A stretch of DNA of 64,000 nt from Peptoniphilus obesi ph1 (GTDB lineage Bacteria > Bacillota > Clostridia > Tissierellales > Peptoniphilaceae), in contig NZ_HE978582.1 in assembly GCF_000311865.1 (NCBI RefSeq), positions 309,971 to 373,970 on the forward strand, read 5' to 3'. Position 1 is the first letter of the stretch, and every line of letters starts with the position of its first letter. This document shows, piece after piece, positions 1,030 through 15,832 of this stretch. The translations under genes were made by a program, and so were the position numbers. The notes beneath the pieces are model-generated. The model was not told the DNA's origin and made no database searches. It was given only the letters and a program-made list of their open reading frames with translations.

Positions 1030-1741
1030 TTTTATCTCTTCCTAAAAAATCTAAAATTACTTTATTGTAAAATTCAGGTGATTTTTTTGCTATGTGGTGA
1101 CCTTGTTTTTCAACTATGCAAAGTTCTGATTTTTTAAATTTATTAGCTATTTTTACAAAAGAGTCAAGATAAATCACATCACTTGCACCTGCTATTATAA
1201 GGACTGGGAAATCCATTTTTTTATAGTCCTTTTCTTTAATTTTTACACTCTCAAATAAAAGACTGTATACGTAAAAATAATTCTTCAAACTCCTAAAAAT
1301 TCTAGAAGTGAATTTCAAAAAATAGTAGCTAATATAAGTAAGTATTCTTGGCATAAGTTTTATTTGACCTATATTTTTGTTTGGAGAATTTAGTATAAGT
1401 TTTTCAACTCTTTCTGGCCAATTTTTCGCAAAAGTTAAGGCGAGATTTGCCCCATCTGAAAAGCCTAATATATTTGCTTTTTCTATTTCTAAATAATCCA
1501 TAATATCTAAAATATCTTTTGATAAGTCTTCAAAATCAAAACTTGGATCTATATCATCGCTTTTACCATGTCCCCTGGTGTCGATTGCTATAAGCTTATA
1601 ATGTTTAGAAAAATCGATAAATTGCTTTTCAAAATAATTTAGATTGTCATTATTTCCGTGAAGAAGCAACAAGGGATCTCCATTTCCCATTATTTTTACA
1701 AAAATTTTTGCTCCATCTCTAACTCTTATATATTTTTCCAT
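1016..1741 (-). CDS. Alpha/beta hydrolase family protein
   Basis: A 241-residue protein with the alpha/beta hydrolase fold. Visible elements are the oxyanion-hole HGN at residues 28-30, the nucleophile elbow GFSDGAN with Ser95, a likely acid Asp188 in AGASDVIY, and His215/216 in GQGHHIAKK. There is no signal peptide, so it should be cytoplasmic. The substrate cannot be told from sequence; esterase, lactonase or C-C hydrolase roles are all possible. AGGTGAG precedes the ATG. Its 3' end overlaps the start of the membrane protein downstream by 14 nt, suggesting an operon, perhaps linked to membrane lipids (inference). Confidence 0.85.
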   Translation of the reverse strand: MEKYIRVRDGAKIFVKIMGNGDPLLLLHGNNDNLNYFEKQFIDFSKHYKLIAIDTRGHGKSDDIDPSFDFEDLSKDILDIMDYLEIEKANILGFSDGANLALTFAKNWPERVEKLILNSPNKNIGQIKLMPRILTYISYYFLKFTSRIFRSLKNYFYVYSLLFESVKIKEKDYKKMDFPVLIIAGASDVIYLDSFVKIANKFKKSELCIVEKQGHHIAKKSPEFYNKVILDFLGRDKIEEI

Positions 1742-1882
1742 AAGCTCACCTAAGCCTATTTTACTACTTTTTTCCTAATTTTTACTTATTATATTCATCG
1801 ATTAAAAATTATTTCTTTATTAGTCGATTTTTATATGCTATAACTTTAGAATTAAATTTATCTTTTAGCATATATATTAAAT

Positions 1883-1910
1883 TTGACCTATTATATTAAA
1901 TTTTTATATT
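1883..1910 (+). promoter_or_regulatory. Candidate promoter for the SLC1-type transporter
   Basis: TTGACC (1883-1888), a 16-nt spacer and TATATT (1905-1910), reading toward the transporter gene at 1988. This leaves a leader of about 70 nt. Judged by eye against the sigma-70/SigA consensus. Confidence 0.45.
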
Positions 1911-1932
1911 TATATGCTATTATATAACTACA

Positions 1933-1959
1933 TTGGGTAAAAATATATTATTTGCCCAA
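1933..1959 (+). promoter_or_regulatory. Inverted repeat in the transporter leader
   Basis: TTGGGTAAA at 1933-1941 pairs with TTTGCCCAA at 1951-1959 (one G-U pair) around a 9-nt AT-rich loop. It lies between the candidate promoter and the ribosome-binding site and has no U-tract, so it could be an operator or a leader hairpin rather than a terminator. Confidence 0.35.
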
Positions 1960-1987
1960 TCAGCAATAATAAAAAAGGAGAATAAGA

Positions 1988-3184
1988 ATGGAGAAAAAAT
2001 CAAGTTTTTTTAATAGCTTAGTTTTCAAACTACTACTTGCCATAGTAATTGGTATATTTGTTGGTTCTTATGCAAACTTAGCTGTTATCGAAGTAATTGA
2101 TGCTATCAAGAAAATTTTAGGAGAACTTATTTTATACATAGTTCCTCTTATAATTCTTGGATTCGTAACACCTGCAATTGTAAGCTTAAAGGATTCTGCT
2201 GGTAAGGTTTTAACAATTACACTAATAATTTGTTACCTATCATCTTTTGGTGCAGCGACTATGTCTATCTTCGCTGGTAAAGCTATTATTCCAAAACTTA
2301 ATATAGCTAGTAATGTTGGATCAGGAAATGCAATTCCTGAATCAATTTTTAAATTAGAAATTGCTCCAATAATGCCAGTTATGACAGCTCTTGTAACTGC
2401 TATATTAATTGGTCTTGCTGTATTATGGACTAAATCTGAAACATGGGAAAAATTATTATTAGAATTTAATAATGTTGTTCTTGCAATTGTTGATAAGGTT
2501 GTAATCTCAATACTTCCACTTTATATAGGTACAACTTTTGCAGGACTTTCATACGAAGGTGTAATAATTCATGAACTTCCAGTGTTCTTAAAAATTATCT
2601 TAATAGTAATCGTCGGACACTTCATCTGGATGACCCTTCTTTATTCTATAGCAGGAGCTATATCAAAGACTAATCCAAAAGAAGTATTTAAATATTATCC
2701 ACCAGCTTACTTTACAGCAGTTGGTACAATGTCAAGTGCTGCAACTCTTCCAGTTGCATTAAAATGTGCCGGAAAATCAAAGACTATTGATCCACAAATT
2801 AGAGACTTTGTTATTCCACTTTGTGCAAACACTCACCTTTGCGGATCTGTTCTTACAGAAACATTCTTTGTTATGACAGTTTCTCAAATTATTTATGGTA
2901 AACTTCCTGATACATCAACTATGTTCTTATTTATATCTTTATTAGGAATATTTGCCATAGCAGCTCCAGGAGTTCCAGGAGGAACAGTTGTTGCATCTCT
3001 TGGTCTAATAACAAGTATATTAGGATTTAACGATGCTGGTACTGCTTTAATGTTATCAATCTTTGCCCTACAAGACAGTTTCGGTACAGCATGTAACGTT
3101 ACTGGCGACGGTGCAATTGCACTTATGGTAACAGGAATTTTAAATAAGGTACCTGGCAGACAAAAAGATAAAGTCGATGCTTAG
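1988..3184 (+). CDS. Dicarboxylate/amino acid:cation symporter (DAACS, SLC1) family protein, variant binding site
   Basis: A 398-residue polytopic membrane protein of the GltP/GltPh family. The HP1 serine-rich loop (MSSAATLPV, ~248-256) and HP2 loop (PGVPGGTVV, ~327-335) are recognisable. By-eye alignment to GltPh shows changes at key sites. The TM7 NMDGT motif is replaced by HLCGS (283-287), losing the aspartate. In TM8, DSFGTACNVTGD (363-374) keeps the equivalents of D394, T398, N401 and D405, but the arginine that binds acidic side chains is a glycine (G366). The substrate is therefore unlikely to be simply glutamate or aspartate. AAGGAG precedes the ATG. A strong terminator follows directly, so it is probably monocistronic. 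Confidence 0.88.
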   Translation: MEKKSSFFNSLVFKLLLAIVIGIFVGSYANLAVIEVIDAIKKILGELILYIVPLIILGFVTPAIVSLKDSAGKVLTITLIICYLSSFGAATMSIFAGKAIIPKLNIASNVGSGNAIPESIFKLEIAPIMPVMTALVTAILIGLAVLWTKSETWEKLLLEFNNVVLAIVDKVVISILPLYIGTTFAGLSYEGVIIHELPVFLKIILIVIVGHFIWMTLLYSIAGAISKTNPKEVFKYYPPAYFTAVGTMSSAATLPVALKCAGKSKTIDPQIRDFVIPLCANTHLCGSVLTETFFVMTVSQIIYGKLPDTSTMFLFISLLGIFAIAAPGVPGGTVVASLGLITSILGFNDAGTALMLSIFALQDSFGTACNVTGDGAIALMVTGILNKVPGRQKDKVDA

Positions 3185-3190
3185 AAAAAC

Positions 3191-3226
3191 AAAAAGTATA
3201 GGTTATTAATAACCTATACTTTTTTT
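3191..3226. terminator. Bidirectional intrinsic terminator
   Basis: A perfect 17-bp palindrome (arms 3191-3207 and 3208-3224) with A-rich and T-rich flanks. It separates two convergent genes, the transporter and the PPK2 gene, and can serve both strands. Confidence 0.85.
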
Positions 3227-3229
3227 ATT

Positions 3230-4717
3230 TTACTTATTCTTTTTCTCATTCTTCTCATTTATTTCTTTTATCTTTTCTTTTGCTCTTTTATTAAATTCCT
3301 TCAAGACTTGAATTCTCGCATATCTTTTGTCTTCACTCGATACAAGAGTCCATGGAGCATAACTTGTATTTGTATTATAAATCATCTCATCAATCGCCAA
3401 AACATAGTCATCCCATCTTTTTCTATTTCTCCAGTCCTCATCTGTAATCTTATATGGCTTTTCTTCTTCCCTATCTTTAAATCTTTTTTCTTGTTCATCC
3501 TTAGAAATAAGTAGGAAAAACTTAAGAACAATGCTTCCAGAATCAATCAATTCTTTTTCCATATTGTTGATTTCTCTGTAAGCCCTTGTCCATTCTATAT
3601 CATTTGCAAAACCTTCAACTCTTTCAACCATAACCCTTCCATACCAACTCCTATCAAAAATAGCAATTTCGCCAGCCCTAGGAAAGTTATTATAAAATCT
3701 CCATAAATAGTGGTGGTCTTTTTCTAAATCAGATGGAGCCGAAGTAGGATTTATCTTATAAGATCTTGCATCTATATTTTTTATCAGCCTTGATATAGCT
3801 CCGCCCTTACCAGCTGCATCCATTCCTTCAAAAACCATAACAACAGGCACATTTAAAGTATGAAGTGCATAGGCAAGCTCTCCAGCCTCTTCTTGTAGTT
3901 TATCCTTTATATCTTTATATTCATCTTTTTCTAGTTTTTTTGATAAATCAAAATCTTCAACCGTTTTTTTAGCATTAAATGAAGGAGCCTTCCAAGTTTT
4001 TTCATATTCTCTTTTTTGTCTAATTCTTTCAACATTTCTCTTTATATATTCTATACTCTTGCCTAGTATTTCTTTTGCTGCAAGTTTTCTATCTTCTGAT
4101 GAAACTACATTCCAAGGCGCCCAAGAAAAATCAGTCTGATTAATTATAGAATTAAAATGTTCTAAATATTTATCATATTCTTTATTTTGATTTATATCTT
4201 CACTAGATACCAAAAACTCTTTGTATTTATTACTTAGGTGGTCTTCTATAGCTTCTTTTTGTCTCTTTTTACTTTGGTGCAAGAAAAATTTTAATATAAT
4301 AGTATGGTCATCATAAAGCATCTTTTCAAGTATCATAATTTGCTTTATACGAATTTTATCCAATTCATTATCAGACTTTAAATCATTTAACAAGTCGTGG
4401 TACATTGAACAGTCAAATATTTGAAAATCCCCTTTGCCAGGAAGTCTCTTCCAAAAAGGATGAGTATAAGTATATTTATTTTTCTTATCAAATCTTTTAA
4501 AAATACTTACATCATAGTGTTTTGCATCTAACTGCCTAACCAGCCTATTCATAACATAGCCCCTACCAGATGATTCCCATCCATCAATCATAATAATTAC
4601 CGGAATCTTTTCATCTACGCAAATCCTTTGGTAGCTAGCTAATTCTTTTCCCAATTCTTTTATACTATAATCCTTATATGTAGATTCAAATTTATCGAAA
4701 TCAAAATTCTTTAACAA
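3230..4717 (-). CDS. Two-domain PPK2 family polyphosphate kinase / polyphosphate:AMP phosphotransferase
   Basis: A 495-residue protein with two tandem PPK2 domains, the architecture of class II PPK2 (Pap), which moves phosphate from polyphosphate to AMP. The C-terminal domain has an intact Walker A (EGMDAAGKG, ~297-305) and the conserved FDRSWYGR block (~354-361). The N-terminal domain has diverged copies: DGWESSGRG (~45-53) and FDCSMYHD where FDRSWYGR is expected, so it is probably non-catalytic, as in known class II enzymes. I chose TTG 4717 rather than the ATG at 4771 because AGAAGGG sits 6 nt upstream of it and because a TATAAT box (4734-4739) lies between the two, making the ATG unlikely to be transcribed. 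The gene lies just outside the left repeat of the island. Confidence 0.88.
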   Translation of the reverse strand: MLKNFDFDKFESTYKDYSIKELGKELASYQRICVDEKIPVIIMIDGWESSGRGYVMNRLVRQLDAKHYDVSIFKRFDKKNKYTYTHPFWKRLPGKGDFQIFDCSMYHDLLNDLKSDNELDKIRIKQIMILEKMLYDDHTIILKFFLHQSKKRQKEAIEDHLSNKYKEFLVSSEDINQNKEYDKYLEHFNSIINQTDFSWAPWNVVSSEDRKLAAKEILGKSIEYIKRNVERIRQKREYEKTWKAPSFNAKKTVEDFDLSKKLEKDEYKDIKDKLQEEAGELAYALHTLNVPVVMVFEGMDAAGKGGAISRLIKNIDARSYKINPTSAPSDLEKDHHYLWRFYNNFPRAGEIAIFDRSWYGRVMVERVEGFANDIEWTRAYREINNMEKELIDSGSIVLKFFLLISKDEQEKRFKDREEEKPYKITDEDWRNRKRWDDYVLAIDEMIYNTNTSYAPWTLVSSEDKRYARIQVLKEFNKRAKEKIKEINEKNEKKNK

Positions 4718-4733
4718 TATTATCCCTTCTTCT

Positions 4734-4739
4734 ATTATA
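4734..4739 (-). promoter_or_regulatory. Candidate -10 box for the PPK2 gene
   Basis: TATAAT on the minus strand, about 17 nt before the TTG start. The -35 region (TTTTGG at 17-nt spacing) is poor, and the implied leader is very short. An upstream terminator at 4771-4793 means the gene needs its own promoter. Confidence 0.3.
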
Positions 4740-4770
4740 CTTTTAATTATTTTTACCCAAAAAATGAGCA

Positions 4771-4793
4771 AATAAAAAAAGCCCCTAAGGGCT
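4771..4793 (-). repeat. Left copy of a 23-bp direct repeat; also a terminator hairpin
   Basis: Identical to 15806-15828 and in the same orientation. It contains the hairpin AGCCC-CTAA-GGGCT with a 7-A run that becomes a U-tract on the minus strand. The right copy is the natural terminator of the cardiolipin synthase gene. The left copy sits just upstream of the PPK2 gene. The two bound an 11-kb island of phage and restriction genes. Confidence 0.75.
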
Positions 4794-4835
4794 TAGTGAA
4801 TTATGAGTTTAGAAAAATACGTTTTGTGTCTAGTA

Positions 4836-4873
4836 AAAAAAGACTATGAGTTTAAATGCTCATAGTCTTTTTT
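4836..4873. terminator. Bidirectional intrinsic terminator
   Basis: AGACTATGAG (4841-4850) pairs with CTCATAGTCT (4859-4868) around an 8-nt loop, with A's before and T's after. It closes the decayed phage/hsdR segment on the minus strand. Confidence 0.75.
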
Positions 4874-4874
4874 C

Positions 4875-4966
4875 TTAATTTCTATAATTTTTCGCCTGCT
4901 CTAAAACCATATCAAATACTTCTTCACTCCATTGAGGAGGATATCCATTTTCACAAAGTAGAATTA
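4875..4966 (-). pseudogene. C-terminal relic of a type I restriction subunit R (hsdR)
   Basis: In the frame ending at TAA 4875-4877 the sequence reads LLCENGYPPQW then SEEVFDMVLEQAKNYRN. The GYPP...VLEQA ending is typical of the C-terminus of many HsdR proteins. No start or helicase domain is present. It is joined, out of frame, to the truncated phage DNA polymerase and differs from the C-terminus of the intact hsdR at 7375, so it derives from a different R subunit. The N-terminal limit of the relic is approximate. Confidence 0.55.
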
Positions 4967-5157
4967 CTAAGTGCTGATAATATTTCTTCAGGAATAATCT
5001 CTCCACTTGTCAAATCTATTACCTTAACTTCTTCATCATCAATAGAATAGGCAAAGAGGAGGATTTCAAAATCCTCACTCTCGGCATATTTATATACACC
5101 ACTTTTGCCTAAATCAACTGAAGAATAGGTTTCAAGATCTATGGACAATTTCTTCAT
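4951..5157 (-). pseudogene. N-terminal fragment of a phage-type family A DNA polymerase
   Basis: The 68 residues from ATG 5157 (MKKLSIDLETYSSVDLGKSG, then VYKYAESEDFEILLFAYSID) match the start of the 3'-5' exonuclease domain of Firmicute phage DNA polymerases, including the DxE metal ligands in SIDLET. Those proteins are about 650 residues; this one stops after LSALSNSTL where the sequence switches to an hsdR relic. It is a deletion remnant and cannot polymerise DNA. In intact phages the gene follows DUF2800 and DUF2815 genes, the same order as here. Confidence 0.8.
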
Positions 5158-5332
5158 AGCTATCACTAAGCTTCGTTAATTCTGCTAAATTATTTTTTCT
5201 ATCTTCTTTTATTTGTTTTTCTATTTTTCTGATATCTCTATCTAGTTCCTTTAACTGAGCTTGTAAAAATCCAAGCTTATACCATAAAAAGGACCAAATA
5301 GCTAAAACTATCGCTGTAATTAAATAGTCCAT
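5132..5332 (-). CDS. Small membrane-anchored coiled-coil protein of the phage module
   Basis: A 66-residue protein with one N-terminal membrane helix (LITAIVLAIWSFLWYKLGFL) followed by a charged helix rich in K, E and D (LKELDRDIRKIEKQIKEDRK), likely a coiled coil. GGAGG is placed just before the ATG. Its 3' end overlaps the start of the polymerase fragment by 26 nt in another frame. No family is recognised. Position between DUF2815 and the polymerase suggests a phage gene of unknown role. Confidence 0.55.
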   Translation of the reverse strand: MDYLITAIVLAIWSFLWYKLGFLQAQLKELDRDIRKIEKQIKEDRKNNLAELTKLSDSYEEIVHRS

Positions 5333-5341
5333 TTCTACCTC

Positions 5342-5896
5342 CTATGCTAAGAAATCTTCATCATCATTGTCATCCATAGCATCAAAGTCATCTGCTGCAT
5401 TAGACCTATTTCCTAGAGGTTGACCATCTCTTAGCTTTTGAATATTCCCTAGCCCAACCGCTACGCCCTTATTGCCATTTACATTGTAGGCATAGAAGTT
5501 AAGAGATACTCTTGCATAGACTCCAGAATAAACTTCGCTCCTATCTAAGATTGGTTCTACATTTCTATCTACAATTTGAGGTGCTGTCATAGAGTTGGCA
5601 TTTAAGAAGTATGCATCTGCATAAGCCTCATCATCTTTTTCTGCATCACCATCTCTTAATGGAAGTTTGATAGCTTTCTTATTTGGTTTCTTTCCATTAA
5701 ATTTAGAAAGTCCTTCTTCAATTGCAGCGTCTACTGCTTTTTCAATTTTCTCGATTGTCTTTTGGTCGCTCTTTGGGATAATGACAGATACTGAGTATCT
5801 TTCTTTACCACCATTGATTGACTTTGGTTCCCAAACATTCGCATAGCTTAATCTAACTTCACCTGTAATTACTTTTGTTTTATTGATATTTGACAT
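5342..5896 (-). CDS. DUF2815 family phage single-stranded DNA-binding protein
   Basis: A 184-residue protein of the DUF2815 family, found in Firmicute phage replication modules and regarded as an ssDNA-binding protein. Features include GEVRLSYANVWEPKS near the N-terminus, a central PLRDGD, and a very acidic C-terminal tail (DDFDAMDDNDDEDFLA) like those of ssDNA-binding proteins that recruit partners. The start is ATG 5896: GGAGG lies 7-8 nt upstream, inside the end of the DUF2800 tail. A longer in-frame start at 5932 would lack such a site. The gene looks intact, although its neighbours on both sides are broken. Confidence 0.8.
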   Translation of the reverse strand: MSNINKTKVITGEVRLSYANVWEPKSINGGKERYSVSVIIPKSDQKTIEKIEKAVDAAIEEGLSKFNGKKPNKKAIKLPLRDGDAEKDDEAYADAYFLNANSMTAPQIVDRNVEPILDRSEVYSGVYARVSLNFYAYNVNGNKGVAVGLGNIQKLRDGQPLGNRSNAADDFDAMDDNDDEDFLA

Positions 5897-5897
5897 A

Positions 5898-6106
5898 TTA
5901 TTTACCTCCGAATTCTTCTTTAACATTGTCAATTTTTACTTCTTCTCGTGTGTCTCTAATGCTTACTAAGGTTAACTTTCCTTTTGGTTTTTCTAATAAT
6001 TCTGTAATATTTTCATCAAAGACTTTCTTACCTAGTAACTTAGTCATAACTGTGATGCCAAGTAACTTTTCTTCAAAGGGATTAAATCCAAGTTCTCTTA
6101 CTTTTT
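5898..6106 (-). pseudogene. C-terminal fragment of a DUF2800 phage protein
   Basis: Reading the minus strand to TAA 5898-5900 gives VRELGFNPFEEKLLGITVMT followed by KLLGKKVFDENITELLEKPKGK. This matches the conserved end of DUF2800 proteins (Cas4-like nuclease family of phages), with the LLGIT-MxKLLGKK motif. An in-frame stop lies two codons upstream of VREL and no start is available, so most of the gene is gone. It abuts another relic in a different frame. Confidence 0.65.
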
Positions 6107-6240
6107 ATAACCTCATATTCAATCTCATAGGTCTTTTCATTTTGTTTTACTTTCTCTTCCTTTCTAGATAGGTTTTCATCATTGTCTAGTGTCGTGAGAA
6201 GGGCACCTATACTAGACGCACAAGATTGTTAGCATCTTTT
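6090..6240 (-). pseudogene. Unidentified phage gene relic
   Basis: An open stretch without a usable start reads QSCASSIGALLTTLDNDENL, then SRKEEKVKQNEKTYEIEYEV and IKSKRTWI before a stop. It overlaps the DUF2800 fragment in another frame. I do not recognise the family. The two frames look like the two sides of a deletion joint near 6106. Confidence 0.35.
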
Positions 6241-6461
6241 TTAATTTCTATCAGTATCTTTATTCTTGACATCTTTTCATTAACAATTTCTTTTAATAAC
6301 TATCTTGCTAATTTTATCGTTAAAATTTATATGGCATATAAGCTTGTTGTAATTTATTCTTTGTTTTTCATTAAGATTTCCTCCTCCCTTAGGTGCTAGA
6401 GACAAGAACCAAATATAAAATTTAGTTCTTAACCCCTCCACTAGCCCTAGGACAAATTCGA
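6241..6461 (-). other. Non-coding, decayed stretch of the phage module
   Basis: A GGAGGAGG site near 6385 precedes ATG AAA AAC AAA GAA TAA, a 5-codon frame. A shifted frame continues with about 30 open codons (EKQRINYNKLICHINFNDKI...). This looks like a small gene disabled by a frameshift. Nothing else is seen. Confidence 0.3.
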
Positions 6462-6956
6462 CTACTTTGTTAGGTGATCTCTTAATATTTTTTTATTTTT
6501 CTTAATATCAGTATTAATTTTCCAAACAGAAACACCAAAAATATCTGCTAATTGTCTTTGAGTTAAATCTGTATGAAAAATAAAATTCATAAGTCTTTTG
6601 TCTTCTTTAGGTAGGTTGTTTATCTCATCTTGCAAAACTTCCAACATTAACCGTGTGACTGCTATTTCTTCTAAATCTTCATCAGATTTAACTTCAAAGT
6701 TTATATCTTCCAAACTTTTATCTAATGAAAGCAGAGACATACCTTCATTCTTAAGATATTCAAAATCTCTTTGTCTGCGTTTTCTTAATCTCCATTCTTC
6801 TTGCATAAATTTCTTATAGTCTTCTTCACTTACTTTTTCTTTGTACACATAATAAGTTCCATCTTTCTTCTTAACTTTAATTAAGTCATTCACATCTAAT
6901 CCAAAATCAATAGCAGCCTCTTTTGTCATTAAAGTTTCCAGTTCTTGCTTTTCCAT
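6462..6956 (-). CDS. Phage/ICE-type sigma-70 region 4-like transcriptional regulator
   Basis: A 164-residue protein. The C-terminal 60 residues (NLPKEDKRLMNFIFHTDLTQ then RQLADIFGVSVWKINTDIKK) form a sigma-70 region 4-like helix-turn-helix of the kind found in late-gene or transfer regulators of phages and integrative elements. The N-terminus (TKEAAIDFGLDVNDLIKVKK) is a small unrecognised domain. I chose ATG 6956 because GAAAGGGG lies 8 nt upstream; a longer reading from 7004 has no such site. It is the first gene of the decayed module and appears intact. Confidence 0.6.
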   Translation of the reverse strand: MEKQELETLMTKEAAIDFGLDVNDLIKVKKKDGTYYVYKEKVSEEDYKKFMQEEWRLRKRRQRDFEYLKNEGMSLLSLDKSLEDINFEVKSDEDLEEIAVTRLMLEVLQDEINNLPKEDKRLMNFIFHTDLTQRQLADIFGVSVWKINTDIKKNKKILRDHLTK

Positions 6957-7193
6957 ATAAAAAGCCCCTTTCTGTAATCTCGTTTGAGATACAAAAAGAG
7001 GCATTCAATTAGCTTAAGTCTAACTTTGCACACGACAAATAACGGTAGCTGCATTGAAAGAAAAAATTAGCATTTGTACACTAATTTATATTCTTTTTGC
7101 ATCTCCGTATTTGTGGCCACTCATACTTTTTGAGATTAATATTTTTGTACCAACTGGTACATCTTTATTTTAGCAAGTAGCTATTTTTCATTT

Positions 7194-7297
7194 GTTGAAG
7201 AAACTTCAACGGATGATACACTTTTTTAAGTCATTTGAAAGTTATCATTTATAAAAAACCGTTCTATTTTAAGGTTCTGCCGTTGAAGAAACTTCAA
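7194..7297. repeat. Twin 16-bp palindromes
   Basis: GTTGAAGAAACTTCAA occurs at 7194-7209 (extended to GTTGAAG-AAA-CTTCAAC, 7194-7210) and again at 7282-7297. Each is an inverted repeat with a 3-nt centre; start-to-start distance is 88 bp. They look like operator sites or short transcribed hairpins. Confidence 0.5.
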
Positions 7298-7313
7298 AAA
7301 ATTTTATTTTTTC

Positions 7314-7348
7314 AAATAAAAAAGGACCAGATATTAAATCTGATCCTT
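7314..7348 (-). terminator. Intrinsic terminator of hsdR
   Basis: On the minus strand AAGGATCAGAT pairs with ATCTGGTCCTT around TTAAT, followed by a U-tract. It is 27 nt after the hsdR stop codon. Confidence 0.75.
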
Positions 7349-7374
7349 AGCTAACTGGTTATATTTCTTATTTA

Positions 7375-10300
7375 TTAGTTTTTCTTTTTAGGTTTTGGGT
7401 ACTTCAATAAATATTCCAAATTTTGATTTTTTAGTTCTGTAATAATCTCAGGATAATCCGTAGCCCATTTTAAATGTATTAACATATTATACGTGTTGTT
7501 ATCATCTCCAGCTCTACCAGGTAAATCCTCATCTATTGTAACTTGAGCTAACTTAAGCATTTTCTTGCTTACCTTTGAAGGAATATGAATACCAAGACAA
7601 GCCGATATAACATTCAATTTGTTTAAATTCTGACCGTTTTGCATATTACTAATTGTTCTTTTATCAAGTCCTGTATCTCCTTGTAAGTTCTTAAATGAAC
7701 AATCACAAATGTTTTTACTCATTAGTTTTTTTAGAGAATCTCCAAATTCAAGATTATTTATGGCTTTTAACATTTCATTAGACATTTGATTGACAAGGCC
7801 ATATTGAGTTAATAAGTCTTCTCCTATATATTCATAGTAATAAAATGTTTTGCTTGCTAATACTGACGGTAAAGTCACATATTTGAGTTGACCGTTCTCA
7901 TCTTCTACAAATTGTAAGAAACATTCTTCCTCATTTTTTTTTGCATAATCCGTTAAAGCATAACCACCTGTTAATTTCTTTTCAACATAGTCCTCTGTAT
8001 TTAAGCATAAATGATTGTCAACAAATGCAAAACAATCACTCTCAATAATAGATGCCAAAGCTCCGCTTTCTTTATACCAAGAATTTAATTGTGCAGTTGA
8101 AACTTTAGTACTAACTTTTTTATCCTTCAAGTCTTCCTCAGTTAAAAAAACATCAATTTGTTTGTACTCTTTCTTTTTATATTTTTCATTTAATGTTTCT
8201 TCATAATCTATTTCAATAAATTGATCTTCCCCATTATTTAAAAGAAAGTGTCTTAAATATCCATCTATATACATAGGTAGACGTTTATTTGAATATGAAT
8301 CACCATAAGAATCTTCAAAGAATTTCCCTGATTTTTCTTTATCACAACTTTCTTTTAATTCATCGAAAGTCCCATATTCAGAAATATTGTCCTCAGTTAC
8401 TTCTTTATTATACAAATATTTTAAAAGCTCCTCAGAGCATCCTAACAATTTAACAACTCTTCTAATTTTATTGTTCTCAAGCTTTGCAAGCATTTCATTT
8501 ATATAGTCGTTAAAAATTTTATTTGGATTTAATTCAATATTTCCAGACTGAATATCATAAATTAAAATACTAGCGAGCTTTTGTCTTTCTTGAGAAAGCA
8601 TCGAAAATGATGCATGAAGTTCTTTTCTTAATTTCTCTACTTCTTCTTTAGAAACATCTTCAGCTAATAATTTGATATACTTTTCGAATCTAGAATTCAT
8701 ATAGTCTTTATCTATTTTCTCGCTATCATGCTCTATAATTCGAGTGTCTATATCAAATGGTACGTCTCCTACTCCTGGACCACCTCCGCCTTTAGGTAAT
8801 TCATTATATCTAGCTAAAAGTTTCAAATAGTCTTCTTCTGTAAAAATCACAGAAATTGTAGAGTTTTCAGATTCATATTCTTTAATTTCCCAATCAAACC
8901 CCTGAATCAAAGCAGCATCCAGATGTTTTGAAAATTTATTAAACTCTTTAGCAAATTTAGCTTTGACACTATTTTCTTCAGGTAGTTTTTCAAAATTTTC
9001 TATATCTGAGTTTTCAAAAAGAATCCTCATATCTTCGAAGCAATTATTCATATTTCTAATATTACCAGGTAATTTATCAACAAATAATCCAAGTGGTATA
9101 TCTCCAGAATATGCTTTTACTGCTTCCTTTAGATTTCTATCCATTGTATTTGGTCTTCTATACCACTTTATAATTCCAAAAGGTTTTTCTTTTCTGTTGT
9201 AGATTCTGTTAGTTCTTGAGATTGCTTGGATTAAATTCTCATATTGAAGCATTTTATCAAGATATAAAGTATTAACTCTTTTAGAATCAAATCCGGTTAA
9301 CATTTGATTTACAACAATTAAAATATCAATTTGTTCATCTCTATTAATGTTTTCATATGGTTCTTTATGTGAAAGTCGCCTACTGACATCTTTCCTAAAC
9401 TTATCATAAGTTGGAATTGTAAAAGACATATCATATTTAGCATTATAGTCTTCTAGTATTTCTACAATCCCATCCTCTTTATCCAAGGAAGACTGTCCTT
9501 CATTATCAATACTGGGGTCAAACATGGCTGCAATATTAAGCTCAGACATTTCTTTTTTCATAAGTCTATAATAATCTACTGCTTCTGGAATGCTTGAAGT
9601 TGCAAAAATAGCATGAAACTTATTATCATTACTATATAAAGGCCATTTACTCTTTATATCAGCAATCAAAGCCTGCCTGTATTCTTCAGTTTCATATTGT
9701 TCATTTGGAACATAATCTTCTATTCCCTTGACCCACTTATTGTTTATTAATTCTTCACACATACCTACTTTTGAAGAATCCATAAATTTCATAAATACTT
9801 TCTTTTTCTTTTCATCAGCCATAGCTTCAGCAATAGATCCTGCTTTAGCTTGGTGTAAAGCAACCTTTTCTCTTATCTCTGAATCTGGGTAAACTTTTAC
9901 CATATATGGATCGAAGCCTAATACATTTCCATCTTTTATACCATCAGATAGAGTATATCTATGGATTTCATCTCCAAATATTGTTGGAGTTGTACTGTCT
10001 TTCTTTATGTTGGCTTCTTGAATAGGCGTTCCTGTAAATCCAAATATAAGTGCATTCTTAAATGTTTTCTTTATAGTAGTAAGCATCTCTCCAAAAGTAG
10101 ACCTATGGCATTCGTCTATTATTATGACTATTCTCTTTTTAGATATATATCTAATATCATCAATTTTTAAAGCTTCTGAATCTTCACTGATATTAGATAA
10201 CTTTTGAATTGATGTTACTATAAGTGTATTATCATAGTCATTGCTTTTTAGCTTACTAATTAAAATATTTGTGTTTTCAGTAGCTTGTACAGATTCATCA

Positions 10301-11328
10301 TCACTTTTAAATGCTCTATATTCATTTAATGACTGAGTAGCAAGTTCTTTTCTGTCTACAAGGAATATTACCTTATCAGCATCGTTTGAGGATGCAATAA
10401 GCTGAGCAGATTTAAAACTAGTCATGGTTTTTCCTGAACCTGTTGTGTGCCATACATGTCCGCCTAATTGTTTCCCATCAAACCATGTGTTTTTAGCTAC
10501 TTTCTCTGCAATTCCATTTGCAGCATAATATTGGTAAGATCTCATTACTTTTAAAATACCATCACTAGAGTCAGCAACAGTATAAAAACCTATTAATTGA
10601 TGAGCCATCGGAATATTTAATAAATTAGCTATTACATCCGCCCAATGGTTTATCAGCTCATTATTAAAATCTGCCCAATGAAAATAAAAGTCTTGGTTGA
10701 ATTTTCCTTCGCCAGGATTTGCAAAATAAACTGTTTCATCAGGTTGCATAGCTACAAATATTTGAACTAATGAAAATAATCCCTTAAAAATACCCTCATG
10801 TGAATATTTTTCAATTTGATTATATGCCTGACTAACTTCGATTCCACTTTTCTTTAACTCTAAATGTATAACAGGCATACCATTAATAAGTAGCATCAAA
10901 TCTCCTCTTCTATCATTTAAAATGGAAGTTTTTGCTTTAAATTTTGGTTGGCTTACAATTTGATATCTGCTTTCTCCAAAGGCAATTTCCTGCCTATCAT
11001 ATATTTTTAGACTTACTTCCTTACCATAATGTAATTTATCGTCTGGATTATCCCTCTTGATAGCTACGCTCTTACCGTTAATAAATCCATTGAGTTTCAT
11101 AGGGCTTTGAAGAGCAATAATTTGCTCCAAAATTTGATCCATTTCAGTTCTAGTAAGTGGTACATCATTCAACTTATCTATTTGCCTATTATTATTAAAT
11201 AGTATCTCAGCCCAATTGTTTATAAGATCTTCTTCAGTCGGATAATAAATAACCTCTTCTTCCCATCCATACTTTATTAAAGTCTCAATAACAGCTTTCT
11301 CAAACTCAGCTTCGTTATTAAATTGCAT
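7375..11328 (-). CDS. hsdR: Type I restriction enzyme R subunit with a C-terminal HTH extension
   Basis: A 1317-residue HsdR: ATP-dependent translocation and cleavage subunit of a type I restriction system. Seen in order (residue numbers counted from the GTG at 11337): the nuclease domain with GDLMLLI and ELKKSG (~145-164); Walker A HTTGSGKT (~297-304); the DEAD-type box DECH (~408-411); TGTP (~435-438); helicase motif with QAISRTNR (~704-711); and the C-terminal M/S-binding region ending near IDGYLRHFLL (~1024-1033). A further ~285 residues follow, longer than usual. They contain ALTDYAKKNEEECFLQF (~1127-1143) and a Cro/CI-like HTH (TGLDKRTISNMQNGQNLNKL, ~1222-1241). ATG 11328 is preferred over GTG 11337, which touches the GGAGG. 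The gene follows hsdS closely in the same operon. Confidence 0.9.
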   Translation of the reverse strand: MQFNNEAEFEKAVIETLIKYGWEEEVIYYPTEEDLINNWAEILFNNNRQIDKLNDVPLTRTEMDQILEQIIALQSPMKLNGFINGKSVAIKRDNPDDKLHYGKEVSLKIYDRQEIAFGESRYQIVSQPKFKAKTSILNDRRGDLMLLINGMPVIHLELKKSGIEVSQAYNQIEKYSHEGIFKGLFSLVQIFVAMQPDETVYFANPGEGKFNQDFYFHWADFNNELINHWADVIANLLNIPMAHQLIGFYTVADSSDGILKVMRSYQYYAANGIAEKVAKNTWFDGKQLGGHVWHTTGSGKTMTSFKSAQLIASSNDADKVIFLVDRKELATQSLNEYRAFKSDDESVQATENTNILISKLKSNDYDNTLIVTSIQKLSNISEDSEALKIDDIRYISKKRIVIIIDECHRSTFGEMLTTIKKTFKNALIFGFTGTPIQEANIKKDSTTPTIFGDEIHRYTLSDGIKDGNVLGFDPYMVKVYPDSEIREKVALHQAKAGSIAEAMADEKKKKVFMKFMDSSKVGMCEELINNKWVKGIEDYVPNEQYETEEYRQALIADIKSKWPLYSNDNKFHAIFATSSIPEAVDYYRLMKKEMSELNIAAMFDPSIDNEGQSSLDKEDGIVEILEDYNAKYDMSFTIPTYDKFRKDVSRRLSHKEPYENINRDEQIDILIVVNQMLTGFDSKRVNTLYLDKMLQYENLIQAISRTNRIYNRKEKPFGIIKWYRRPNTMDRNLKEAVKAYSGDIPLGLFVDKLPGNIRNMNNCFEDMRILFENSDIENFEKLPEENSVKAKFAKEFNKFSKHLDAALIQGFDWEIKEYESENSTISVIFTEEDYLKLLARYNELPKGGGGPGVGDVPFDIDTRIIEHDSEKIDKDYMNSRFEKYIKLLAEDVSKEEVEKLRKELHASFSMLSQERQKLASILIYDIQSGNIELNPNKIFNDYINEMLAKLENNKIRRVVKLLGCSEELLKYLYNKEVTEDNISEYGTFDELKESCDKEKSGKFFEDSYGDSYSNKRLPMYIDGYLRHFLLNNGEDQFIEIDYEETLNEKYKKKEYKQIDVFLTEEDLKDKKVSTKVSTAQLNSWYKESGALASIIESDCFAFVDNHLCLNTEDYVEKKLTGGYALTDYAKKNEEECFLQFVEDENGQLKYVTLPSVLASKTFYYYEYIGEDLLTQYGLVNQMSNEMLKAINNLEFGDSLKKLMSKNICDCSFKNLQGDTGLDKRTISNMQNGQNLNKLNVISACLGIHIPSKVSKKMLKLAQVTIDEDLPGRAGDDNNTYNMLIHLKWATDYPEIITELKNQNLEYLLKYPKPKKKN

Positions 11329-11340
11329 TTTCTTCACCTC

Positions 11341-12600
11341 CTATACAAACATATTATCCAGCAAAGATGACTTTACATTTTTTAATTTTTCTAATTTTTC
11401 CTTATTTAACTCTATGAGTTTATCTAGTTTAGAAAAATAGTCTCCTATAGCTTTTTGTTCGTCTCGTGAACTAGGAATTTTTATTGGTGTTTGTTTTCCA
11501 CTTTCAATAGTATATGTTCCTACTGTTCCTATTCCAGATGATATTTTTATATATTTTTGAATTAAATTTCCATAAAATGAATAAAAAAGAAATTTCGGGT
11601 CAATATTATTTTTGTTTTTAAACCATATCACATTACCATCTTTAAAATATATAGGTTGACTGTTTTGTATTAACATCGGAACACCTATAGTTCCTACTCC
11701 TGTAACTAATAAATCACCAACCTTAACTCTTCCAGATATTGAAATACATTCTATATATTTATCTTCTGTTATAAATATAGGATCATTTATACTGATGTTT
11801 TTCGATCTTGCAACTATATCTCTTGCACGCAAAAAAGGAATCCCAGATTTGACCCAGTCTTTTTGATGTATACGTTTAACAGATGTAACTTCCATTATTT
11901 TTCCAAGAACATTTTCTTCCCATTCTCCACTAAATCCATTAAATCTTATCTCAGGAGTAGCTTCTCCTTCTCTTGGAAATAGCTTATTTAGCATAGCTTT
12001 TTTAACGTCAAGAAGTTTTTCATATTTTTGCTTTTGTAAAGATATAAGATTATCTATATTAGCAAAATAATTTCCTATTTTTTGTTGTTCATTTTTTTCA
12101 GGGATTGATACTTTTATTTTTTCAAGTACTGATTGACTTATGTTTTTGTTAGCACTATTGGTTGATTGACTAATTATTTGTTTTCTAACAGGCTTTGTGC
12201 TAAAAACGAATCTTTTAAAATTATTCTCCATTCCATAGATATCTCTAAATCTTATTATAAATCCTGAATATGTTGTATCTTTTAAATTATCAGAAACCAG
12301 GGCTGCTTCACCAACGCCTTCTAATTTCACAGAGGATCTAACAAATAAAACATCACCTTTGTTTAAAGAATAATCTTTAAGTTGTTGATTAGAAGCTAAT
12401 GCCTTATCCAAATTTTCTGCGTCAATTATATTTTTGCCGAATATATTTTGTAAGTTTACAAATGGAAAACCAATTCCCATAGCATCTTTTGAAAAATTCA
12501 TTCCATTTTTAAAGTTGCCAAGCTCTTGTAAGCTATATATTTTCCACTCATCTTCAAACCCATCAAATCTTATCTTAGGTACATTTTTATTTTTTTTCAT
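11341..12600 (-). CDS. hsdS: Type I restriction-modification specificity subunit S
   Basis: A 419-residue HsdS, which recognises the bipartite DNA target for both methylation and cleavage. It has the two-fold repeat of the family: target-recognition domain 1 (~15-160), a central conserved helix (SLQKQKYEKLLDVKKAMLNK, ~193-212), TRD2 (~220-370), and a second conserved helix at the end (ELNKEKLEKLKNVKSSLLDN). Both repeats open with IRFxGFxxEW. It looks complete. The start ATG 12600 lies directly after the hsdM stop, and the stop overlaps the hsdR ribosome-binding site, so the three genes are co-translated. No second hsdS or recombinase that could shuffle specificity is seen. Confidence 0.9.
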   Translation of the reverse strand: MKKNKNVPKIRFDGFEDEWKIYSLQELGNFKNGMNFSKDAMGIGFPFVNLQNIFGKNIIDAENLDKALASNQQLKDYSLNKGDVLFVRSSVKLEGVGEAALVSDNLKDTTYSGFIIRFRDIYGMENNFKRFVFSTKPVRKQIISQSTNSANKNISQSVLEKIKVSIPEKNEQQKIGNYFANIDNLISLQKQKYEKLLDVKKAMLNKLFPREGEATPEIRFNGFSGEWEENVLGKIMEVTSVKRIHQKDWVKSGIPFLRARDIVARSKNISINDPIFITEDKYIECISISGRVKVGDLLVTGVGTIGVPMLIQNSQPIYFKDGNVIWFKNKNNIDPKFLFYSFYGNLIQKYIKISSGIGTVGTYTIESGKQTPIKIPSSRDEQKAIGDYFSKLDKLIELNKEKLEKLKNVKSSLLDNMFV

Positions 12601-12601
12601 T

Positions 12602-13894
12602 TTATACCTCCAATAATTTTTGGAGTTCTTTTATTCCAGCTAAATCTTTTTCATTCCCCATTAGTTTATCAGACATAGAAATAAATTCTTCTTTGGTATC
12701 ATTTAGGTATTTTTCTATATCAACAAATGTCTTTGCATATTTTTTGTAAATAGCTCTTATATTTTCTTCAAGATTTATAAGAACATTTTTTCCCAATTCA
12801 TCCAAGCCTATTACGAGTGGAGCTATCCATTTTTTATAAAGTAAGTCTAGAGATTTATCTTCGTCTAGGCTTTCTATTAAGTCTTTTGTTTTAAGATGAA
12901 GTTCTTCTCTCTTTATTTTTAAATCTGATTTTAAAGTAGATTCTTCTTCAATTAAAAAAGTTACTTTTTGAAGCTTGCTTTCCAAAGAATCTTCCTCAAA
13001 GCTAAAAGTTTGTTGAATTTGAGCTATTCTTTTATTTATCTCTGGTTTTGTGTAGGTTCCACTTTTGCCCTTCTCCATTAAATCCCAGTCAATGTTATTA
13101 TTTTCATTAACATATTGTTCTTTTTCCACTTTTTTAGACAATTCAAGATATCCATTTAGTATTCTAATTTCATCTGTTTCTATCTCATCACAAGCTTCTT
13201 TCATATATTTTTTGACTTCAGTATTTACAAAAGAAGTGTTATCTTCCTTTACATAATCTGCATCTTTTTCACCTTCTTCTAAAGAGTCCAGTATTTCTCC
13301 ATATTCAGATGTTATTTCAGCAAGTCTAGCTTCTACAGTTCTTATTTCTTCTACCTCATCTTTTAGTAGGTTTTCCTGAACTAATTCAAATGGCAGTATT
13401 CTACCTCTCCATCCTTCCTGAACTTCAGGAACTTCTTCTTCACCTTCCTTTTTCTTCTTCACAACCATATTTGGATCAACTAAATTTATAATATCAAAGC
13501 CTTCATCTAGAATCATTTCTAAGTCAGTTTCTATAGTATTCCAGTTATTTGCAAATATTTGATACGCCTTATACTTATCTACTAATTTTATTGTTTCTAA
13601 TCTTTCAAAGATGTTTTTTACAATTTTTTCTCGTTCTTCTGCAATTTCAACATCTAAAATCCCATCTATCAAATCTTCTTTAAGATTTTCTTTAAAACCA
13701 TTAAAGGCTTCTTTGTATTTTTTGATATATTCATGAGATGATTTATGTCCTTGTATTATATTATTTAACTCTTCAATATTTAGATCATAATACTCCCCAT
13801 CTTTTGTTCTAAAAATTTCATCATCTAGTCCTTTTAGTTCCTCCCAGTAGTCACTTAACTCCAGAATTTCAGACTTTGGGATACCTCCAAACAT
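12602..13894 (-). CDS. C-terminal part of type I methyltransferase HsdM, cut off by a frameshift
   Basis: A 430-residue open frame starting at an internal ATG (MFGGIPKSEILELSDYW). The frame is open further upstream to about 14030 and reads RISIEKYSRVVTKDEI then NEYNLNIPRYVD, which is the normal HsdM sequence between the catalytic domain and the C-terminus. It contains long helical, charged segments that bind HsdS and HsdR in this family. It has no methyltransferase motif itself and no obvious ribosome-binding site at 13894, so it is best read as the second half of one broken hsdM. Removing one G from the GGG run at about 14025-14027 would join it to the preceding frame, giving a protein of about 917 residues. 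Confidence 0.75.
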   Translation of the reverse strand: MFGGIPKSEILELSDYWEELKGLDDEIFRTKDGEYYDLNIEELNNIIQGHKSSHEYIKKYKEAFNGFKENLKEDLIDGILDVEIAEEREKIVKNIFERLETIKLVDKYKAYQIFANNWNTIETDLEMILDEGFDIINLVDPNMVVKKKKEGEEEVPEVQEGWRGRILPFELVQENLLKDEVEEIRTVEARLAEITSEYGEILDSLEEGEKDADYVKEDNTSFVNTEVKKYMKEACDEIETDEIRILNGYLELSKKVEKEQYVNENNNIDWDLMEKGKSGTYTKPEINKRIAQIQQTFSFEEDSLESKLQKVTFLIEEESTLKSDLKIKREELHLKTKDLIESLDEDKSLDLLYKKWIAPLVIGLDELGKNVLINLEENIRAIYKKYAKTFVDIEKYLNDTKEEFISMSDKLMGNEKDLAGIKELQKLLEV

Positions 13895-14021
13895 GGTTGC
13901 ATATAAGTCATATTTTTCTACAGGTTCTGAAGAATCAACATAACGAGGGATGTTAAGATTGTATTCATTTTTTCTTATTTCATCTTTTGTAACTACCCTA
14001 GAATATTTTTCAATACTAATC

Positions 14022-15356
14022 CTATCCCTCTATAGTGTCAGTTATTTTCCTAATGTCACAATTTCTTAGTTTGTTACTCTTTCCTGATTTTTCAAATCCT
14101 TTTGATGCATCAATTATTAAAACATCATTATTTTCTTTGTTATGTTTTAAAATCATTATTATAGTTGGTATACTAGTTCCAAAAAATACATTAGAAGGAA
14201 GCCCTATAATTGTATCTATTTTGTTTTTTTCAATCAGATTTTTTCTTATTTCACCTTCAGCATTTCCTCTAAATAAGACTCCATGAGGTAATACAATTGT
14301 CATAATACCATCTGGTTCTAAATGATATAAATCATGAAGTAAGAATGCATAATCAGCCTTTCCTCTTGGTGCTGTACCATAATACTTGTACCTTGGATCA
14401 TGCTCTTTATTTTTAGGCGACCATTTTTGAGAATATGGCGGATTTGAAACAACTGCATCTGCTTTTACTAGATTGTAAGTACTGTCTTTTCTATCATCTT
14501 CAAAAAATGGCCAATCATCTTCTAATGTATCTCCATTTCTTACATTAATATTAGCTGGTTTAATATCTCTCATAACTAAATTCATACGAGTTAAGTTATA
14601 AGTATTTTCTTTTAACTCTTGAGCATAATAATCTATCTTATTATCACTATCTAAATATCTGCGCATTGCCTTCCCAATGTTAATTAGCAAAGAACCACTT
14701 CCAGATGTCGGATCATAAATTTTGATTTTATCTCTATCTTTTAGTTCTTCAGCGATTATTTCAGACATCAAAACAGATACTTCATGAGGTGTATAAAATT
14801 CTCCCGCTTTTTTGCCAGCATTAGCAGCGAACATTGAAATTAAATATTCATAAACAAAACCTAAAACATCATAGTCTTGACTACCATCCATAGGAATTCT
14901 TTTTATTAAATTTAATAACGACCTTGCCGCTTTGGTTTGTTTAGCAGCACTTTCTCCTAATTTAGAAAGTCCACTGCTAAGAGTCTTAAAGATGTTTTCA
15001 AAAACTTTCTTATATGAACTATCAATGTTTCTATCAAAGGCAGATAACGCATCTCTTACATCTGCTATTTCAAAGTCTCCACCTTTGGATAGCCATGTTG
15101 AATATAGATTCTCATATGAAATAAAATATCCCAAGTTTTTTCTTACAAATTCTGCATATTCTTCATCGTCTTCACTTATCTTTTCAATATCTTCTTGTAG
15201 CAATCCTTGATTTTTTAAAAACCTTAATTCTTTATCAGACAGATATTTATAGAAAATAAATCCTAAGATAAAGTCTTTATACTCGCTTGCCTCTATTTTT
15301 GAACGCATCTGATTTGCAGATTCCCAAATTGTTGATGCTAACTGTTGTTTATCCAT
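14022..15356 (-). CDS. hsdM: Type I restriction-modification methyltransferase HsdM, N-terminal part (frameshifted)
   Basis: A 444-residue frame with the N-terminal helical domain (MDKQQLASTIWESANQMRSK) and the N6-adenine methyltransferase domain: the AdoMet-binding DPTSGSGSLL (~215-224) and catalytic NPPY (305-308). It ends KITDTIEG at a stop that is out of frame with the continuation of the family sequence, so the HsdS/HsdR-binding C-terminus is encoded separately (12602-13894). The probable lesion is one extra G. It may be real inactivation, programmed or variable, or a sequencing error. ATG 15356 follows GTGGAGG. It is the first gene of the hsdM-hsdS-hsdR operon. Confidence 0.85.
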   Translation of the reverse strand: MDKQQLASTIWESANQMRSKIEASEYKDFILGFIFYKYLSDKELRFLKNQGLLQEDIEKISEDDEEYAEFVRKNLGYFISYENLYSTWLSKGGDFEIADVRDALSAFDRNIDSSYKKVFENIFKTLSSGLSKLGESAAKQTKAARSLLNLIKRIPMDGSQDYDVLGFVYEYLISMFAANAGKKAGEFYTPHEVSVLMSEIIAEELKDRDKIKIYDPTSGSGSLLINIGKAMRRYLDSDNKIDYYAQELKENTYNLTRMNLVMRDIKPANINVRNGDTLEDDWPFFEDDRKDSTYNLVKADAVVSNPPYSQKWSPKNKEHDPRYKYYGTAPRGKADYAFLLHDLYHLEPDGIMTIVLPHGVLFRGNAEGEIRKNLIEKNKIDTIIGLPSNVFFGTSIPTIIMILKHNKENNDVLIIDASKGFEKSGKSNKLRNCDIRKITDTIEG

Positions 15357-15379
15357 AAGTTTCCTCCACTTAAATGTAG

Positions 15380-15469
15380 TTAATAAACACTTTTAAAGTC
15401 TATTATTCTAGTAGTTTCCTCTGCTATTAGGCTTTTTGCAAGATTGTCTTTTATATTTTGACCGATCAT
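15380..15469 (-). CDS. 29-residue small ORF upstream of hsdM
   Basis: ATG 15467-15469 has GGAGG at the right distance (6 nt) and opens a 29-codon frame (MIGQNIKDNLAKSLIAEETT then RIIDFKSVY) ending 23 nt before the hsdM start. It has no recognisable domain. It may be a translated leader peptide of the operon or the remains of a small gene. Only the good ribosome-binding site supports translation. Confidence 0.35.
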   Translation of the reverse strand: MIGQNIKDNLAKSLIAEETTRIIDFKSVY

Positions 15470-15479
15470 TTATATCCTC

Positions 15480-15658
15480 CTATATATATTCTAAAACCCT
15501 TAATATATCACATAAAATATCCACATGACCATATTCTCATCTCGTCCTATTTTTCTATATGTATTTGGACTTATGTTTATGGCTTTTTGTAGGTCTAGTT
15601 TTTTCATTTTTATCTATTATTTTAATTTTTCCTATAATTTGTCATAGAAAAATCCCAT
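15480..15658 (-). pseudogene. Decayed Cro/CI (HTH_26-type) regulator upstream of hsdM
   Basis: From ATG 15658 one frame reads MGFFYDKL-stop-EKLK-stop-stop-IKMKKLDLQKAINISPNTYRKIGRDENMVM. A one-base shift then gives VDILCDILRVLEYI-stop. Together they match the small HTH_26 regulators (about 60-70 residues) that begin with xxYxKLW, have KKxDLxxAxxIS, and end with DxLCxILxxLxxxxxD. The first stop is where the family has Trp (TGG to TAG). With three stops and one frameshift it cannot be functional. Such regulators often sit next to mobile restriction loci. Confidence 0.7.
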
Positions 15659-15805
15659 ATTATAACTACTATATTTCATTTTCTAGCTTTTTTCTAGATT
15701 ATTAAACAGAGTTTTGAGATTTAATTTTTATATTTTTCTTAAATTTATTAATTTCAATCTTTTTCTAATCTAAATCTTTGTTTATAATCTTTTAAATAAA
15801 AGTGC

Positions 15806-15828
15806 AATAAAAAAAGCCCCTAAGGGCT
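15806..15828 (-). repeat. Right copy of the 23-bp direct repeat; terminator of the cardiolipin synthase gene
   Basis: Identical to 4771-4793 in the same orientation. It lies 4 nt after the cls stop codon, and on the minus strand it is a hairpin AGCCC-TTAG-GGGCT with a U-tract, so this copy is probably the ancestral terminator. Confidence 0.75.
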
Positions 15829-15832
15829 CTTA

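Follow-up and report, generated by a model that had tools for sequence, protein, structure and literature searches.

A prophage type I restriction subunit with a C-terminal module of the phrog_4031 type and candidate paired operators beside its gene

The control of type I R-M systems is described as little known in a review that cites, besides endonuclease-regulator fusions, a type I locus that has a separate C-family protein (PMC12707154). The closest described systems are the type IIP C-REase fusions, in which a restriction enzyme is naturally fused to a Cro/CI-type regulator and which are reported to be active both as enzyme and as regulator (PMC3850674). The HsdR protein analysed here resembles them in this fusion, but falls outside the class as that paper presents it, because the enzyme there is a type II endonuclease and here a type I motor subunit; in addition, the regulator of HsdR is C-terminal and belongs to another family (phrog_4031), and its candidate sites face phage replication genes rather than an R-M promoter. 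RptR, whose gene comes first in its island (PMC12255303), and HsdC (PMC5282649) are comparable as DNA-binding regulators at type I hsd loci with several binding sites, but they are described as separate small proteins acting on the R-M promoter. There is also a likeness to the IrrE/PprI-DdrO system (PMC10904395), in that phrog_4031 joins an IrrE-like peptidase to a helix-turn-helix (HTH) and the predicted HTH of the tail is structurally DdrO-like, the difference being that the tailed HsdR has no peptidase. No description of an HsdR-HTH fusion or of phrog_4031 operators was recognised in a literature search. Endonuclease-regulator fusions are known from type IIP systems; what is unexpected here is a regulator from a phage control family.

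The tailed HsdR and its relatives

The window is the whole stretch of DNA that was analysed, 64,000 nucleotides from Peptoniphilus obesi ph1. Its hsd genes are arranged as follows.

7375..11337, minus strand: hsdR with a C-terminal fusion, a single open frame of 1320 aa
8233..11337, minus strand: HsdR body, residues 1-1035 (HSDR_N, SWI2/SNF2 ATPase, domain 3, helical C-terminal part)
11341..12600, minus strand: hsdS, 419 aa
12602..13894, minus strand: C-terminal part of hsdM, a 430-aa ORF in a different frame from the N-terminal part
14022..15356, minus strand: N-terminal part of hsdM, 444 aa

Residues 8-727 of the window HsdR correspond to HSDR_N, SWI2_SNF2 and a T1R_D3-like domain (Pfam, above the curated cut-offs), and the protein scores 363.6 bits with TIGR00348, for which the cut-off is 284.55. 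It is adjoined by hsdM and hsdS, as type I membership requires, the hsdM being frameshifted. Judged by its sequence, it is a type I HsdR (TIGR00348) with putative catalytic activity. The frameshift splits hsdM in the window while the tailed hsdR frame remains open; in another tailed locus, L032, hsdM is broken into several ORFs, yet the tailed HsdR is intact at 1351 aa. A second HsdR of the same genome (G000), untailed and in a 1013-aa frame (C1 367914-370568), is 35% identical to C3 318203-321307.

The tail of the window HsdR, 285 aa encoded by 7378-8232, can be divided as follows.

8161..8232, minus strand: linker, HsdR residues 1036-1059, pLDDT <50
7828..8160, minus strand: alpha/beta domain of the tail (HsdR residues ~1060-1170), with a conserved Y-A-x-x-x-x-x-E-C-x-L-x-F segment
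7525..7758, minus strand: predicted Cro/CI-type five-helix HTH (tail residues 159-236), from AlphaFold and structure alignment
7639-7695, minus strand: helix-turn-helix pair (tail residues 180-198)
7426..7518, minus strand: two C-terminal helices (tail residues 239-269), from AlphaFold

The first-pass annotation had proposed that HsdR carries an extra C-terminal module containing a Cro/CI-like HTH, and both proposals are borne out. Untailed HsdR relatives (54-60% identity) stop where window residue ~1035 aligns, with ends of the type ...FILEGGFEI or similar aligned to window residues ~1025-1037. The end of the body, placed at ~1033 in that annotation, is therefore confirmed at ~1035, but the module proper spans ~1060-1317, residues 1036-1059 forming a low-confidence linker. 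The AlphaFold2 model of the tail, based on an alignment of 67 sequences (pLDDT 88, pTM 0.84), has residues 1-24 disordered, an alpha/beta domain at about 25-135 and helices at 163-171, 180-187, 191-198, 205-215 and 219-228, followed by two more; the HTH, at residues ~1194-1271 in HsdR numbering, has helices with pLDDT mostly >90. In VIA-align, tail residues 159-236 pair with SinR bound to DNA (3zkc; Z 6.3, 1.8 A over 61), and the HTH aligns with C.BclI (Z 6.2), C.Esp1396I (Z 6.2) and DdrO (Z 6.3); phage repressors also pair with residues 159-236 (Z about 6). The predicted fold is that of a five-helix Cro/CI (Xre) HTH, at modest Z scores of 6-7 over a small domain, and sharing this fold with SinR, DdrO and C proteins shows no function. 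The mean net charge of the HTH is +3.9 in 20 fused tails. HTH_26 reaches 14.7 bits in the window tail, under the Pfam gathering cut-off of 22, and homologues of the tail exceed the Pfam cut-off for HTH_26 or HTH_3 at the same position. The tail had no match above chance in NCBIfam and none among PDB sequences, and the whole tail model had none in PDB or BFVD at E <= 0.001 (Foldseek). The alpha/beta domain gave weak GNAT-like alignments only (Z <= 3.1). An internal start yielding a free tail was considered and rejected, no conserved start with a ribosome site being found in 13 genes.

Tails 52-84% identical to that of the window occur in other genomes, and the tail matches phrog_4031 (PHROGs v4) over columns 382-624 of 626 with E = 3.8e-18; it is thus not a product of chance. 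Nor is it an ordinary part of HsdR shared by all close homologues. Among the 32 of 101 related genomes with HsdR matches in a body-only search, G000, G004 and G071 (body identity of at least 69%) have frames of 1321-1339 aa, and the next-best bodies reach 31-40% identity, in frames of 718-1104 aa. The 11 strong body matches in 391 class genomes comprise three tailed proteins (at least 66% identity) and eight at 55-60%, all eight without a tail frame, although one of them (L164) has an internal stop and was classed by frame length only. The six plasmid or phage relatives fetched are all untailed, and the tail is present in 5/5 independent genomes with an HsdR body at least 66% identical. In one of the eight untailed class relatives (L159, genome G373, 367-4665), ~380 HsdS-like residues precede HsdR in one frame of ~1432-1445 aa; this protein is long though untailed because of its N-terminal HsdS fusion.

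The trees of both halves indicate that the tail was gained once by HsdR. A rooted tree of 34 HsdR bodies, built from 19 tailed rows and 15 untailed ones chosen among the fetched sequences, groups all tailed rows in a single clade (SH-aLRT 100), and the module tree, with 117 copies, has a branch (SH-aLRT 100) that sets the 27 HsdR-fused rows apart from all others. Both are quick trees, and the module tree includes two rows (L011, L012) that retain some HsdR body residues and one, L104_11, that is labelled stand-alone but is a fragment of a split phrog_4031. A loss of the tail could be missed, because most of the tailed rows were found by tail search. The donor may have been phrog_4031 or a stand-alone sister, the branches in the module tree being long. 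In ten pairwise comparisons, dN/dS was 0.02-0.08 for the HsdR body; for the tail, nine pairs gave finite values of 0.06-0.21 and the tenth was saturated, so the tail is constrained by purifying selection.

The phrog_4031 family and its place in phage genomes

Proteins of phrog_4031, of ~626 aa, combine an IrrE/M78-like HExxH peptidase with an Xre HTH. Among five members scanned, the Peptidase_M78 match at the HExxH region was above the cut-off in two, as was that of HTH_3 at the position of the HTH of the tail, also in two; weak similarity to CapP was found in both members scanned with PADLOC. CapP-CapH and ImmA-ImmR are further peptidase-repressor pairs with which this combination can be compared. 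The tailed HsdR shares with this family the homologous C-terminal ~240 residues, the same phage slot and a similar paired palindrome downstream, but has the motor in place of the N-terminal and peptidase parts, and no remnant of the peptidase part was found by tblastn in 21 tailed sequences (19 loci, L005 and the window).

The tail-type module is found in phages and plasmids (tblastn). It also occurs as a stand-alone protein of ~265-330 aa, directly before phrog_4031 and, in several loci, after restriction genes (hmmsearch). The resemblance to free-standing HTH proteins with an ALTDYA...ECCLxF segment, noted in the first-pass annotation, was thus well founded, the counterparts being phrog_4031 C-termini and stand-alone proteins of ~270 aa beside R-M genes. 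Oscillospiraceae phage NatCom_21982 has the order C5 methylase, AAA_5 protein, RE_LlaJI, stand-alone module, phrog_4031. In L009 (5127-5945) and L045 (8505-9323), a stand-alone module of ~270 aa directly follows an LlaJI-type restriction gene, and in L178 (3-3700), phrog_4031 stands between two stand-alone modules in a tandem array that precedes the replication genes.

The region downstream of hsdR in the window belongs to the same phage context.

6462..7004, minus strand: sigma-70 region 4-like gene; in L039, an intact relative, it comes first in the phage replication operon
5342..5932, minus strand: phage gene for a DUF2815/Enc34-type ssDNA-binding protein, part of the same remnant operon
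4963..15368, minus strand: prophage remnant, the stretch alignable to phage L039

L039 is a viral contig, the only one found when viral contigs were searched with the HsdR body; its HsdR (1317 aa, with tail) has a body 97% identical to that of the window, and the genes that come after it are sigma-like, DUF2800, DUF2815, DNA polymerase, DUF4406 and primase-like. Window positions 4963-15368 align to it in pieces, and ~1 kb (the DUF2800 region) is missing near 6100, as is the rest of the operon, which marks the window copy as a prophage remnant. This copy may be inert, since its hsdM is frameshifted and most of the replication operon has been lost; L039, with an intact hsdM of 917 aa, and others are intact copies of the tailed locus.

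Candidatus Heliusviridae is described as having nine core genes, which include DUF2800, DUF2815 and DNA polymerase I (PMC9226167). Two scans gave 19 tailed loci; within the stretches examined, 10 of them contain a homologue of DUF2800, DUF2815 or the polymerase (in two, a fragment only), and none contains a phrog_4031 gene besides the tailed HsdR. In 80 viral loci, phrog_4031 usually lies directly before the same replication genes. Neighbours were counted in the 54 of these 80 loci with at least 3 kb upstream, as the two nearest ORFs of at least 150 aa. The 107 upstream ORFs include C5 methylase (10), LlaJI (8), AAA_5 (8), N6_N4_Mtase (7), Methylase_S (5), McrBC (4), NgoFVII (4), and N6_Mtase, MvaI, GmrSD and Bpu10I (2 each). 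Among the 104 downstream ORFs are DUF2800 (26), Sigma70_r4_2 (9) and DNA_pol_A (4); methylases and named restriction endonucleases are absent, and two ORFs match the generic ResIII helicase model. The tailed HsdR thus stands where phrog_4031 does in other loci, with an R-M cassette on one side and the replication genes on the other. L045-L124 and L166-L182 share a cargo slot for diverse R-M systems next to the Heliusvirales-type replication genes, with phrog_4031 as its marker.

Paired palindromes in the slot

Two palindromes, which provide the strongest new line of evidence, lie between hsdR and the sigma-like gene of the window.

7322..7348, minus strand: intrinsic-terminator-like hairpin after hsdR
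7282..7298: candidate operator 1, GTTGAA-N5-TTCAAC type with a single mismatch, 77 bp beyond the hsdR stop
7194..7210: candidate operator 2, an exact match to GTTGAA-N5-TTCAAC at a distance of 88 bp from operator 1

Such a pair, with at most two mismatches per site, is present in 15 of the 23 tailed loci examined (the window, L005, L026-L044, L127 and L156), a site with two mismatches being weak evidence singly. It lies behind hsdR in 12 of the 15 (window, L026, L030, L031, L036, L039-L043, L127, L156) and upstream of hsdM in L032, L034 and L044, where it faces a divergent gene, sigma-like in L034. In L005 the two sites are separated by group II intron ORFs, one lying behind hsdR and the other immediately ahead of the sigma gene. 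A single site only was found in L033, L029 (exact for the variant GATGAA-N5-TTCATC) and L038 (weak), and none in 4 of the 23 (L027, L028, L035, L037). A diverged tailed locus that is not among the 23, L184, carries CTTGAA-type sites at a distance of 89 bp. The consensus of 40 tailed half-sites is G37 T35 T40 G40 A40 A38.

The exact GTTGAA motif was not found in 1.26 Mb of phrog_4031 loci, nor in 41 untailed HsdR loci. The exact pair occurs in two viral contigs: L041, which is tailed, and L219, which has the same hsdM family and no tail in its record, the stretch beginning inside hsdM. A looser single site is present in 18 viral contigs, of which L222, L223, L041 and L227 derive from tailed contigs, L219 and L220 have the phage module with no tail in the record, and 12 have no module.

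A search for palindrome pairs of any sequence within 500 bp downstream of phrog_4031 found one in 48 of 80 loci, leaving 32 without, compared with 1/74 regions upstream of phrog_4031, 8/356 random windows, 18/240 other intergenic starts and 0/154 shuffled regions. Both copies of a pair carry the same half-site sequence. The half-sites of phrog_4031 are CGGACA or GGAAGT, whereas that of the tailed HsdR is GTTGAA, with GATGAA or CTTGAA in subclades. They go with particular HTH sequences: CGGACA with ...RTIRRIVNGE or ...KTIQRMRNN, GGAAGT with ...RMIQDYRNKKD, TCGACA with ...ETVSRCINGE and GTTGAA with HsdR tails. Half-site and HTH distances are correlated over 51 distinct pairs (Mantel r 0.63; reached in 0/2000 permutations, the largest giving 0.18). 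The spacings within pairs cluster at 87-88, 97-100, 108-113, 119-122, 130-134 and 137-143 bp, and for periods of 10-11 bp the maximum phasing R was 0.64 (0/5000 uniform draws) for 46 distinct pairs <180 bp apart, counted after L102 and L120 had been dropped, and 0.66 (0/5000) for 34 collapsed pairs; shared ancestry inflates both this test and the Mantel test. Spacing by the helical repeat is what looping between two DNA-bound proteins would impose.

Other elements were seen near these sites. In L043, a DUF2800 RNA (RF02960; 10122-10275) lies between the operator pair and the sigma-like gene, and leaders resembling this RNA by eye are present in L026, L041, L058 and L184; Rfam gave no match at the gathering score for the leaders of L026, L041 and L058, and none at E <= 0.1 for window positions 4700-16000. 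In L039, two perfect AAAAGTAATTACTTTT palindromes (2523-2538 and 2571-2586; two found, 0.10 expected) lie 48 bp apart just upstream of the Phd/YefM-like gene that precedes hsdM. They were rejected as sites for the tail, their motif differing from the tail motif, and they are absent from the window, where similarity to L039 stops 12 bp before hsdM.

Proposed role of the tail and alternative readings

The presence of pairs in the slot, the way the half-site tracks the HTH and the spacing by the helical repeat make the tail a likely operator-binding module. Most likely, it serves prophage replication control, probably by DNA looping, rather than control of the hsd promoter. The reading preferred here, with a probability of roughly 0.6, is that of a prophage type I R-M system whose HsdR is fused to a phrog_4031-type DNA-binding module, which would bind, loop and regulate the replication operon. 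The tail HTH would bind both GTTGAA-N5-TTCAAC palindromes in the interval from hsdR to the sigma-like gene, the bound tails would bridge them into a DNA loop, and this loop would regulate the phage replication operon, more probably as a repressor. The R2M2S complex is reported to contain two HsdR subunits (PMC12255303) and could therefore bridge two sites with its two tails.

It is unlikely, but conceivable, that the palindromes are bound by another factor, such as the sigma-like protein, or form RNA hairpins, the tail being a protein-interaction or regulatory appendage. Binding by the tail is, after all, something we infer from sequence, the sites adjoin the sigma-like gene, and the first site of some phrog_4031 pairs is followed by a T-run (as in L058), so that these could be terminators. 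However, the half-site is identical within a pair and follows the HTH sequence, and RNA hairpins do not need helical-repeat spacing. The sigma-like protein is disfavoured as the binder, because loci sharing GTTGAA need not have similar sigma-like proteins: those of the window, L039 and L043 have no BLAST similarity (1e-3) to those of L041 and L026, although all share GTTGAA, while the sigma-like proteins of L041 and L030 are 58% identical, yet the sites are GTTGAA in one and GATGAA in the other.

The first-pass annotation had suggested that the fusion might autoregulate its operon, the tail binding the hsd promoter and controlling R-M expression like a C protein fused to an endonuclease. The activity of the type IIP fusions provides a precedent, the sites of L032, L034 and L044 lie 373-465 bp upstream of hsdM, and the hsd operon of L039 has the two perfect palindromes in its promoter region. 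Control of hsd is possible in L032, L034 and L044, given their sites upstream of hsdM and the divergent gene. As a general account, however, autoregulation seems quite improbable and the suggestion was not supported in the form given: most candidate operators lie behind hsdR, and upstream of phrog_4031 pairs are as rare as noted above; the L039 promoter-region palindromes differ in sequence and could be bound by the product of the Phd/YefM-like first gene, and other tailed loci have a small HTH gene of their own before hsdM. That the tail gives the restriction complex an extra anchor or target-recognition site, which might for instance hold it on prophage DNA or keep it away, with no transcriptional role, would suit the physical joining of a motor to a DNA-binding module and the candidate site on the prophage, but is very unlikely, since phrog_4031 phages have the same module without HsdR and the same site layout.

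Operator binding by the tail, the preferred reading, can be extended into a more speculative scheme, itself rather unlikely as a whole, in which the restriction motor of the prophage is wired to its own replication switch. HsdR tails looping the paired operators would keep the replication operon quiet; at unmodified DNA, whether of a superinfecting phage or damaged or freshly synthesised, ATP-driven translocation or assembly would pull HsdR off the operators and release phage replication. Conversely, HsdR parked at the operators would restrain restriction in the lysogen.

In these loci, which make up a widespread case, the DNA-binding module of a phage regulator is part of the type I motor subunit itself; its half-sites are predicted to be GTTGAA, and a loop is predicted as well. 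For phrog_4031, a phage family of unknown function in PHROGs and a marker of an R-M cargo slot, operators and a role are likewise proposed. Defence and phage control may be wired together in these elements, and the question whether phages couple the defence genes they carry to the switch that governs their life cycle becomes directly testable.
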